27,820 nt of DNA from Treponema sp. Lineage in GTDB: Bacteria > Spirochaetota > Spirochaetia > Treponematales > Breznakiellaceae. Below, in pieces: positions 15,078 to 22,201 of the stretch. A program made the translations under genes and the position numbers. The number at the start of each line of letters is the position of its first letter. Position 1 is the first letter of the stretch. The notes under the pieces were generated by a model. The model saw only the letters and a list, made by a program, of their open reading frames with translations. It was not told where the DNA came from and ran no database searches. The stretch is taken from positions 1 to 27,820 of the forward strand of contig JAISBR010000109.1 of NCBI GenBank assembly GCA_031266095.1, in the 5' to 3' direction.

Positions 15078-15105
15078 TTGACTGATTTTGTTAAATATGT
15101 ATAAT
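15078..15105 (+). promoter_or_regulatory. Sigma-70-type promoter of the iron-uptake operon
   Basis: TTGACT (15078-15083) and TATAAT (15100-15105) are separated by 16 bases, close to ideal. Between the -10 box and the start codon lie about 57 very AT-rich bases containing TTAGT...ACTAA inverted ends, a plausible place for an iron-dependent repressor (Fur, PerR or DtxR/TroR type). The repressor site is conjecture; the promoter boxes are clear. Confidence 0.7.
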
Positions 15106-15162
15106 AAAGTTAGTTTTAGCTATTATAGTTATATGATACTAATTAATATGGAGGGCTTTGAC

Positions 15163-16686
15163 TTGAAAAAGATACTCTCTGTGGCGGCGCTTATCCTCAC
15201 CCCGTTTATCCTCTTTTCTCAGGAAACCGGTTTTGATACCTGGCTTGAGGCGGAAGCGGCAATGAGACTTCTTCTTAACGAAGCCTTCTATAGTTATGTT
15301 TCTTCTGATGTTGAGGGCGCCTGTGGACAAATGGACAGCGTTTTTGACGAATATTACCGGGATACAGGTTTTAAACAAGGCGTATTGGAGAACATATCGG
15401 CGGAACGCGATCAAAATATTGAGGACTGGTTTGCCTATGTAAAAAGTTCCATGCGTGCGGGAGCTTCCCAGCGGGAGGTTAGGGAAAACTTCAATCAGCT
15501 TAGTCACCTCCTTCGGGTAACCGCCGGAAGGCTTGACGGAAAGGAAGAACCCGCCGCGTCAACACGGAACTGGACTAAAACCGCTGTGGAGATGGCCGCT
15601 ATTTTGAACAGCGCCTATGACAAATACCGTGCGGGGGATACAAAAGGCGCGAAAGACGAAGTTGACGCGGTGTATTTTCAGTACTACGAAAAGCTTGGTT
15701 TTGAAAGAACCGTTATGACCCGGATTTCCGGGGAACGGGCCAGTGTAGTGGAGTACCAGTTCAGTACGGCAAAGAAGGCTATTACCAGGGGAGAAGACGA
15801 GGAAGTAAAAAACAGTCTTGATACCCTTTCGCGGTACATTACCGAAGACGCCGCCCAGCTTGACAGTAAGGTTGAGAGCGCCTTGGGGGTTTTTCTCGGC
15901 TCCCTTCTTATTATATTACGGGAAGGCTTTGAGGCTATCATCATCGTCGGGGCTATTATCGCCTATCTTATCAAAAGTGGGAATAAAAAAAGTACCGCTC
16001 CGGTGTACTGGGGCTCTCTCGCCGCCCTTGGTTTCAGTGTTGTCATGGCCATGATACTTAACGCCCTTACCAGTACCGCAAGCGGCAGGAACCAGGAGAT
16101 TATCGAAGGGGCTACTATGCTCCTTGCGGTTGTAGTGTTGTTCTATGTCAGTAACTGGATGGTATCCAAAGCAGAAGCGGAAGCGTGGGCGCAGTACATC
16201 GAAGGAAAGGTGCAGAGTTCTATTACCAGGGGCTCCATGTTTTCCCTTGCCTTTGCGGCCTTCCTCGCCGTGTTTCGGGAAGGGGCAGAGACGATTCTTT
16301 TCTACCAGGCCTTGCTTGCGGGAAACCAGAACTATATCAACATGGTGTGGCTTGGATTCGGTATTGGTTCGATAGCCCTCGTAGTCATATATATTTTGAT
16401 AAGGGTTTTGAGCCTCAGACTCCCGCTTAAACCCTTCTTCCTGGGGACCAGTATCCTCCTCTTTGTGATGTCCGTCTCCTTTACCGGAGCGGGTATTAAG
16501 GAACTTCAGGAAGGGAACGTCGTCCCCGTTACCATGCTGCCCTTTAATTTTACCGTGGACATACTGGGTATTTATCCTACCCTCCAGACCCTTATTCCCC
16601 AGGTGTTATTCCTTGCCGTTACTATAACGGTGTTTGTTTTCCAAATCAGGAAGAACAGGAGACTTTCGGTTCAAAAATCCGCTTAG
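15163..16686 (+). CDS. FTR1-family iron permease with duplicated periplasmic domain
   Basis: The 507-residue protein is an oxidase-dependent-type iron permease. It has a signal peptide (KKILSVAALILTPFILFSQ), a large periplasmic part to about residue 245, then a seven-helix FTR1 membrane domain. Two REGxE iron-binding motifs are present: REGFE at 253-257 and REGAE at 372-376. The periplasmic part is two tandem copies of a helical domain (about 32-125 and 145-238). I start at TTG 15163 because GGAGG lies eight bases upstream and a signal peptide follows at once; the ATG at 15148 has no such site. It is first in an operon with P19, DUF2318, ABC and FMN-binding genes, like Campylobacter cj1658, so uptake of ferrous/ferric iron across the inner membrane is expected. 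Confidence 0.9.
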   Translation: MKKILSVAALILTPFILFSQETGFDTWLEAEAAMRLLLNEAFYSYVSSDVEGACGQMDSVFDEYYRDTGFKQGVLENISAERDQNIEDWFAYVKSSMRAGASQREVRENFNQLSHLLRVTAGRLDGKEEPAASTRNWTKTAVEMAAILNSAYDKYRAGDTKGAKDEVDAVYFQYYEKLGFERTVMTRISGERASVVEYQFSTAKKAITRGEDEEVKNSLDTLSRYITEDAAQLDSKVESALGVFLGSLLIILREGFEAIIIVGAIIAYLIKSGNKKSTAPVYWGSLAALGFSVVMAMILNALTSTASGRNQEIIEGATMLLAVVVLFYVSNWMVSKAEAEAWAQYIEGKVQSSITRGSMFSLAFAAFLAVFREGAETILFYQALLAGNQNYINMVWLGFGIGSIALVVIYILIRVLSLRLPLKPFFLGTSILLFVMSVSFTGAGIKELQEGNVVPVTMLPFNFTVDILGIYPTLQTLIPQVLFLAVTITVFVFQIRKNRRLSVQKSA

Positions 16687-16766
16687 CGTAAAGTTTAAGC
16701 AGAGGATATAAAACAGGTTTTAACTCAGGTCATAGACTATGAGAATAATTAACAAGGGGGAAGTAC

Positions 16767-21084: not shown

Positions 21085-21099
21085 GCCTTGGAGGGGAAT

Positions 21100-21783
21100 A
21101 TGGATTTACTGGAATTAAAAGACATATCGAAAGTATACGGGAATCTCAAAGCCTTGCAGGATATTAACCTTACGGTCAGCCAGGGTGAATGGCTGGCGAT
21201 CATGGGCCCTTCAGGTTCCGGGAAAACCACCATGATGAACATCATCGGCTGCATGGATAAGCCGTCGTCGGGGACCGTGTTTCTTGACGGGGTAAACATT
21301 TCCAAAGAAAGCGATAAAAACCTTACCGCTCTCCGGCGCGACAAGATCGGCCTTATCTTCCAGCAGTTCCACCTCGTGAATTATCTGAGCGCTCTGGAAA
21401 ACGTGATGGTAGCTCAGTACTACCACAGCCTTCCCGACGAAAAAGAAGCCCTGGAGGCCCTTGACCGGGTAGGGCTTTCCGGCAGGGCGAAACACCTTCC
21501 CAGCCAGCTTTCCGGGGGTGAACAGCAGCGGGTCTGCATAGCCCGGGCCCTCATCAATTACCCCAAACTTATTCTGGCGGACGAACCCACGGGAAACCTC
21601 GATGAAGCCAACGAGAATATTGTTATCGGCATTTTCAAAAAACTCCACGCCGGGGGCAGTACCATTATAGTGGTAACCCATGACCCGGAAGTCGCCGAAG
21701 ACGCGGAGCGGACGGTGGTACTGGAACACGGCAGGATTTCAAGAATTATCAAAAATAACAAAGGAGAAAAGCGTCATGAATAA
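21100..21783 (+). CDS. ABC transporter ATP-binding protein, MacB/LolD type
   Basis: This 227-residue ATPase has Walker A GPSGSGKT at 36-43, a Q-loop at IFQQFHLVN, the signature LSGGEQQR, Walker B LILADEPTGNLDE and the H-loop VTHDPEVAE. This is the LolD/MacB/FtsE class that pairs with FtsX-type permeases, so it powers the two upstream proteins. I start at ATG 21100, where GGAGGGG gives an ideal site; the TTG four codons earlier would place that site inside the gene. It corresponds to cj1663. The last 8 bases overlap the next gene, which keeps their synthesis linked. Confidence 0.95.
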   Translation: MDLLELKDISKVYGNLKALQDINLTVSQGEWLAIMGPSGSGKTTMMNIIGCMDKPSSGTVFLDGVNISKESDKNLTALRRDKIGLIFQQFHLVNYLSALENVMVAQYYHSLPDEKEALEALDRVGLSGRAKHLPSQLSGGEQQRVCIARALINYPKLILADEPTGNLDEANENIVIGIFKKLHAGGSTIIVVTHDPEVAEDAERTVVLEHGRISRIIKNNKGEKRHE

Positions 21784-22201
21784 GCGTCTGAATTTTGCTT
21801 TCAGTGCATTGGTCTTTGCCGCGGTTTTTTTAATGGCCGGCTGTGGAAACTCAGGCTATAAAGACGGAACCTATTCGGGGAGGAGCGGGCCTGATGACGA
21901 CGGCGCCTTTGGGGAAGTGACGCTTACCATCGCGGACGGAAAAATCACCGGATGCGGCTTTGTTACCTGGCAGAAAGACGGTTCTATCAAAGATGAAAAT
22001 TATGGGAAGATAAACGGCGAAATCGCAAACCGGTCCTATTATGAGAAGGCCCAGCTTGCAGTGACCGCTATGGAAAAATACGCGCTGGATTTAAGCACGA
22101 CAGGAAGCCTGAACGACGTAGAGGCGGTGACCGGCGCTACCATTGCGTATAACCAGTTCAGAGAAGCGGCAGAGGAAGCCCTGTTCTCGGCGGGAAAGTA
22201 A
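21776..22201 (+). CDS. FMN-binding-domain lipoprotein
   Basis: This protein of 141 residues has a lipobox LMAGC with C23, so it should be lipid-anchored and face the periplasm or surface. The rest is one FMN-binding domain: KDGTYSGRSG at the start, FGEVTLTIADGKITGCGF, and EAVTGATIAYNQF near the end, where T122 of TGAT is the position to which ApbE attaches FMN through a phosphoester bond in NqrC-type domains. The usual last Thr/Ser of the site is Ala here. It overlaps the ATPase gene by 8 bases, with AAGGAG before the ATG. Campylobacter has thioredoxin-like genes at this place; a flavoprotein could serve the same redox purpose, such as reducing ferric iron. That is inferred. Confidence 0.88.
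   Translation: MNKRLNFAFSALVFAAVFLMAGCGNSGYKDGTYSGRSGPDDDGAFGEVTLTIADGKITGCGFVTWQKDGSIKDENYGKINGEIANRSYYEKAQLAVTAMEKYALDLSTTGSLNDVEAVTGATIAYNQFREAAEEALFSAGK

Follow-up and report, generated by a model that had tools for sequence, protein, structure and literature searches.

In Campylobacter jejuni, the P19 iron-uptake system is encoded by fetMP-fetABCDEF (genes 1649-1656), and growth suffers there when fetA, fetB, fetC or fetD is disrupted, and also when the redundant pair fetE and fetF are both disrupted (PMC10783030, 2023). Thioredoxin-like proteins hold the last operon slot in most Proteobacteria, whereas P19 clusters with a flavin mononucleotide (FMN)-binding protein in seventh place have been reported in Spirochaetes, with Treponema sp. 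OMZ 838 and Spirochaeta thermophila in the species list and with reduction of ferric iron already suggested (Liu 2018, PMC6083913). A survey from 2021 described 260 P19 clusters that include an FMN_bind gene, mostly from Gram-positive bacteria, and made a similar suggestion of reduction (Meheust 2021, PMC8238504). Flavin-type P19 systems are widespread, yet the roles of the flavoprotein and of FetA are left undefined in this literature. The DNA analyzed here, referred to as the window, is a stretch of 27,820 nucleotides from contig JAISBR010000109.1 of a Treponema sp. assembly (GCA_031266095.1), and its forward strand contains at 15078-22201 all seven genes of such a system, in the order FTR1, P19/Tp34, FetA, FetB, FetC, FetD and FMN_bind lipoprotein. 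The make-up is that of the P19-FMN clusters of Spirochaetes, Firmicutes, Actinobacteria and Synergistetes (PMC6083913, PMC8238504), with no essential difference, and the window is a further member of a known arrangement. Because both the exchange of an FMN protein for thioredoxin and the idea of reduction were put forward by Liu 2018 and Meheust 2021, the central point of an earlier note on this DNA was already in print. The additions made here are the linkage of apbE to the operon, a DtxR-type half-site repeat at operon fronts, unlinked FTR1 genes that often carry the same repeat, and a FetA membrane part without strongly conserved redox ligands.

The gene identities proposed in the earlier note were borne out by Pfam matches above the curated cut-offs for all seven genes, namely FTR1 (PF03239, 108 bits), Iron_transport/P19 (PF10634, 196 bits), FtrD-like/DUF2318 in FetA (110 bits), FtsX together with MacB_PCD in both FetB and FetC, ABC_tran in FetD (123 bits), and FMN_bind (PF04205) in the lipoprotein (29.5 bits against a cut-off of 22). 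Start codons were refined by inspection of the DNA (TTG for FTR1, GTG for FetA, ATG for FetD and the lipoprotein), and the interval runs from the -35 box of the promoter to the stop codon of the FMN gene (Table 1). The likeness to the Campylobacter layout also held, in that the first six genes have the same order and the same predicted products, and the DUF2318 spacing (CxxC-x13-CxxC-x14/15-C) is shared; however, the C. jejuni cluster ends in two thioredoxin-like genes and has a Fur box, whereas the window has, as the note had claimed, a single FMN_bind lipoprotein with a TGAT motif in that slot, and a near-match to a DtxR-type site. We lean towards reading the locus as a P19 (FetMP-FetABCD) operon for iron uptake that is complete, belongs to the flavoprotein type and is probably under repression by a DtxR-family protein; in it, the lipoprotein would pass electrons to the Cys centre of FetA or to iron for release as Fe(II).

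To place the operon among its relatives, genome contigs were scanned with a FetA alignment, which yielded 379 relatives, and the best 80 loci (L001-L080) were kept; whole-genome searches covered the genomes behind 30 of these. The six nearest FetA loci were from treponeme and Spirochaetaceae metagenome-assembled genomes (MAGs), at 71-76% identity, and we take the nearest treponeme and Spirochaetaceae isolates to be from guts of termites or cockroaches. Within the limits of the contigs, the seven-gene order recurred in these best 80 of the 379 loci, with the exceptions described below, and is not a product of chance. The FMN gene followed fetD in 60 of the 80, fetD was not visible in 17, and fetD stood without an FMN gene in three; because two of these three contigs extend past fetD by 2 bases (L021) and by 78 (L036), 60 of 61 testable loci have the FMN gene. 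The earlier note had tied a functional link to the presence of the FMN gene beside the operon in relatives, and this near-constant placement, together with apbE directly after the FMN gene in 6 of the 80 loci, supports the link. The FMN gene might instead be a mere neighbor with no part in iron uptake, as the remaining locus, L073, could suggest, since it has a run from P19 to fetD and then a convergent gene, with no FMN gene; but the gene otherwise keeps its place, overlaps fetD in the window, is joined by apbE in six loci and appears in the same pairing in the published surveys (PMC6083913, PMC8238504), all of which makes this alternative highly improbable. The L073 contig region (L073:1-7729) belongs to a Spirochaetaceae MAG with 17 FMN_bind matches elsewhere in the genome and no FTR1 match. 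At L022, L044 and L051, the operon appears to end after fetA or fetB, with kilobases of contig beyond.

The lipoprotein combines a lipid-anchor signal (LMAGC) with an FMN_bind fold, as in the FMN_bind proteins flavinylated by ApbE, and its structure model (predicted local distance difference test score, 87.5) has as nearest solved folds 3o6u and 2kzx, two clostridial proteins. Motifs of the [ST]GA[ST] type are the established sites of flavin attachment in ApbE substrates. All 68 homologs aligned, which were taken from 120 listed among 272 matches, have [ST]GAT, whereas among the FMN genes of the 60 loci, [ST]GA[ST] was found in 51, the other nine comprising six with AGAT, one with GGAT, one with SAAT and one (L074) truncated by a contig end. 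Covalent FMN on the lipoprotein is predicted. No ApbE-like open reading frame was found within the 27,820-nucleotide window; ApbE (PF02424) was found in 24 of the 30 genomes searched, including five of the six nearest, and FMN_bind in all 30. When the ApbE protein of L009 was used as query over all 80 loci, apbE was found directly after the FMN gene in L009 (Clostridium minihomine), L047, L061, L062, L075 and, truncated by a contig end, L072, corresponding to five among the 37 loci whose contigs extend 1.2 kb or more past the FMN gene, plus L072. These six are clostridial, coriobacterial and Endomicrobium loci, and no apbE was found beside the operon of any spirochaete among the 80. This adjacency is the strongest argument from sequence for flavinylation of the lipoprotein and for the importance of its flavin to the operon, and the named clostridia that have it (Clostridium minihomine and Faecalispora jeddahensis) offer a handle on the system. 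PplA, the flavoprotein of extracellular electron transfer in Listeria, is also an FMN_bind lipoprotein; however, filing the window protein under that name was rejected, as the NCBIfam model gave 31.7 bits over one stretch, far under its curated cut-off of 325.

In FetA, the five Cys of the DUF2318 domain were invariant in 81 sequences, with a spacing that matches the published motif (PMC6083913). The membrane part has no His conserved in more than 56% of these sequences: of the His residues of the window protein before position 295, conservation is 1-30% for 103, 174, 193 and 223 and 56% for 259, and Cys is absent from this part of that protein. Because strongly conserved redox ligands are missing from this part, the operon encodes no visible membrane-spanning electron path, and the path that the earlier note had proposed was not borne out. 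The absence of a membrane-crossing redox part narrows the electron question, in that a housekeeping donor such as Rnf becomes the first to consider; the RnfD family was found in all 30 genomes searched, and Rnf is a plausible donor to the lipoprotein. The invariant Cys could alternatively mean that the flavoprotein acts on protein thiols and not on iron, keeping the five Cys of FetA fit for a metal or Fe-S center, like FetE/FetF in Proteobacteria. The alignment of 68 lipoproteins has no conserved Cys pair, and a one-flavin carrier without such a pair is not a usual thiol reductase, which leaves this role improbable, even with the Cys invariance in its favor. That most Proteobacteria have thioredoxin-like proteins in this operon slot (PMC6083913) also speaks for it.

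Ahead of the operon lies the best-scoring of the 10 sigma-70-like sites in the region (6.0 were expected in shuffles), and three bases past its -10 box is a near-match to a repeat conserved at operon fronts. Operators of the DtxR/IdeR type have two CCTAA-like repeats per half site, in the arrangement TTAG-N6-CTAA, which covers the -10 box or the start site, and the DtxR/IdeR box contains TTAG-N6-CTAA twice. The count took in 58 fronts, that of the window and those of 57 loci; the remaining 23 of the 80 loci were excluded for want of a full-length first gene with room ahead. Perfect GTTAG-N6-CTAAC was present at 29 of the 58, the window not among them, and the relaxed pattern [GA]TTAG-N6-CTA[AT][CT] at 46, window included, as compared to nine perfect and 20 relaxed matches in 832 kb elsewhere in the same loci (forward strand). 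The relaxed pattern was picked after inspecting the fronts, so these counts are not independent, and a comparison of spacers and the genome searches described below are the better checks. TTAG-Nk-CTA[AT] had a spacer of 6 at 47 of the 58 fronts and every other spacer from 0 to 14 at six or fewer, and shuffled fronts (200 rounds, single letters) matched the relaxed pattern in 0.27 of 58 cases on average and in no more than 3. Iron control of the window operon is likely on this evidence, and the half-site geometry suggests that a DtxR-family protein probably represses it when iron is plentiful. Titles and the beginnings of abstracts, with subscription papers mostly outside their range, gave no treatment of the repeat ahead of P19 operons. 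In Treponema denticola, TroR is an Mn- and Fe-dependent repressor of the DtxR family (PMC2628430).

Perfect sites were in excess genome-wide in three clostridial genomes (22, 28 and 21 sites versus 6, 6 and 3 for a reversed-pattern control), but not in Candidatus Formimonas (12 versus 10). In treponeme and Spirochaetaceae genomes, the ratios of perfect sites to control were 1:0 for each of L001, L002 and L005, 2:0 for L012, 5:1 for L018 and 4:3 for L041, and the regulon signal in the nearest treponemes is weak. A single copy of the variant GTTAG-N6-CTATC was present in each of the L002, L004 and L005 genomes and none in those of L001, L003 and L006; it lies at the operon in L002 and L005 and on a contig other than that of FTR1 in L004, with one control match in L002. 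Perfect repeats were located ahead of a DtxR-family gene followed by feoB (L088), feoB (L097), a GntR-type regulator gene followed by a FeoA gene (L009), and, in treponemes, TonB-dependent receptors (L111 and L112), a flavodoxin (L113) and a Peripla_BP_2 binding protein (L121), the gene family having been tested in each of these cases; likewise in treponemes, the repeat precedes FTR1 (L114, L116 and L120). Many inspected sites in the relatives' genomes precede genes without an evident iron role, or no gene. The repeat common to the feoB, TonB-receptor and flavodoxin genes of relatives supports the iron-uptake role claimed for the operon. The GntR-type regulator with the repeat ahead lies upstream of FTR1 in clostridia (L009:3962-5777, family tested, with the same placement in L008, L026 and L061) and is followed by a confirmed FeoA gene in L009 and by a FeoA-like frame in L026 and L061; it is a possible second regulator of the P19 system.

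Upstream of FetA, both FTR1 and P19 were found in 51 of the 80 loci, P19 alone in 19 and neither in 10, many of the latter two groups being truncated by contig ends. Nine loci (L027, L030, L039, L041, L049, L054, L058, L063 and L080) have at least 5 kb upstream of FetA and no FTR1 there, and in all eight of the corresponding genomes that were searched (L054 left out), an FTR1 gene with both REGxE motifs was present on another contig. L080 has the FetA-FMN part without P19. Five of eight unlinked treponeme FTR1 genes have the repeat within 250 bases. In several treponemes, FTR1 would have left the operon yet kept the repeat ahead of it, which would make the P19-FetABCD-FMN genes a module of their own. 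It seems reasonably probable that spirochaetes and clostridia share an iron regulon via single-dimer DtxR/IdeR half sites (TTAG-N6-CTAA), with flavin-type P19 uptake as one target and with this module separable within it. From the promoter repeat one would predict that a DtxR-family protein represses the operon in response to iron, and treponemes with FTR1 apart from the remaining genes are a further handle.

In the reading towards which we lean, periplasmic P19 would bind iron and hand it over to FTR1 for import, with FetA and the MacB-like ATP-binding cassette (ABC) unit FetBCD assisting from the membrane; as FetB and FetC are of the FtsX/MacB type, their use of ATP would more probably serve movement of periplasmic parts than iron import. 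The lipoprotein would obtain FMN from an ApbE encoded elsewhere, accept electrons from a donor in the membrane, for which Rnf is the likeliest candidate, and pass them to the Cys center of FetA and/or to iron, which would then leave its ligands as Fe(II). An electron link between the FMN lipoprotein and iron uptake is plausible; we infer its donor, direction and target, and rank reduction ahead of oxidation because all genomes searched have Rnf and the organisms are taken to be anaerobes. Electrons might also flow in reverse, the FMN lipoprotein, alone or with the Cys center of FetA, accepting an electron from the oxidation of P19-bound Fe(II) so that FTR1 would import Fe(III). This would be an oxygen-free counterpart of the part played by Fet3 in yeast. 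The FTR1 family was found in 29 of the 30 genomes, and the sole miss, that of L073, is also the one without an FMN gene in its operon, in keeping with such a flow. Moreover, extracts of C. jejuni showed substrate oxidation promoted by FetEF (PMC10783030), and the FtrABCD system of Bordetella and Brucella uses Fe(II) only, its FTR1-type permease FtrC being predicted to exploit Fe(II) oxidation (PMC11966278). That system resembles the window operon in P19 (FtrA, by PDB names) and in the permease, but has the cupredoxin FtrB and FtrD instead of FetA-D and the FMN protein. The ubiquity of the RnfD family, a natural electron source, argues against reverse flow, as does the preference of Liu 2018 (PMC6083913) and Meheust 2021 (PMC8238504) for reduction, by proposal rather than by experiment on the flavoprotein, and we consider it unlikely. 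Ferric reduction outside the cytoplasm, which the earlier note had offered as a possibility, is one of two directions compatible with the data.

The FetEF result and the FtrC prediction, because of which reduction is not settled, weigh against the reduction reading of the operon, and several other observations join them. L073 lacks the FMN gene beside an otherwise recognizable run of genes, and strongly conserved redox ligands are missing from the FetA membrane part. The apbE gene whose presence in the genome the earlier note had asked for was found in the 24 relatives' genomes given above and not in the other six, which include that of L003, among the nearest six, and are all MAGs of unstated completeness. 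Rnf needs ApbE as well, and with the RnfD family in every genome, the mere presence of ApbE in the spirochaetes is weak evidence of flavinylation of the lipoprotein; anaerobes of this kind would be likely to have both ApbE and Rnf in any case, and their presence gives weak support. As to regulation, the window repeat is imperfect (TTAG-N6-CTAT, two letters off perfect GTTAG-N6-CTAAC), and 12 of the 58 fronts, including those of the near relatives L001 and L003, have no relaxed match. A DtxR-type DNA-binding domain was found in 9 of 9 treponeme genomes searched, a count that says little because 13 of 14 control genomes also have this very common domain.

Table 1. Features of the P19-type operon and its promoter region in the window.
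Feature	Position	Strand	Remarks
Sigma-70-like promoter, TTGACT-16-TATAAT	15078..15105	+	11/12; best-scoring in region, ahead of operon
Near-match to conserved repeat, GTTAG-TTTTAG-CTATT, DtxR/IdeR half-site geometry	15109..15124	+	3 bases past -10 box
FTR1/FetM iron permease with N-terminal extension	15163..16686	+	Two REGxE motifs (REGFE and REGAE); TTG start inferred; GGAGG at 15150
P19/Tp34/FetP iron-binding protein, 193 aa	16767..17348	+	PF10634, 196 bits
FetA, polytopic membrane domain and FtrD-like/DUF2318 domain	17377..18642	+	GTG start inferred; same first residue in most homologs
FetA CxxC-x13-CxxC-x14-C cluster (Cys 357, 360, 374, 377, 392)	18445..18552	+	Invariant in 81 sequences
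FetB, MacB/FtsX-type ABC permease	18651..19946	+	Pfam match
FetC, MacB/FtsX-type ABC permease	19951..21084	+	Pfam match
FetD, ABC ATPase, MacB/LolD-like	21100..21783	+	ATG start; Pfam match
FMN_bind lipoprotein, 141 aa, lipobox LMAGC	21776..22201	+	ATG start; 8-base overlap with fetD end
TGAT, predicted ApbE flavinylation site	22130..22141	+	Thr122 expected FMN carrier; Gly120, Ala121 and Thr122 invariant in 68 sequences

The P19 protein, which adjoins FTR1 on its downstream side, has solved relatives that include Tp34 (2o6c), C. jejuni P19 (3lzl) and 8t7k-m. Tp34 (TP0971 of Treponema pallidum) belongs to the same family as the window protein (E = 3e-51) and is a lipoprotein; the window protein has an early Cys in its signal region, and such a Cys is present in the P19 frames of L049 and L063 and not in those of L027 and L041. 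Just past the operon is a tRNA-Arg gene (CCT) on the reverse strand (22454-22528). Farther upstream, at 10502-11513, overlapping frames between a small helix-turn-helix-like gene and a phosphoglycerate-kinase-like gene resemble pieces of an IS630-type transposase.

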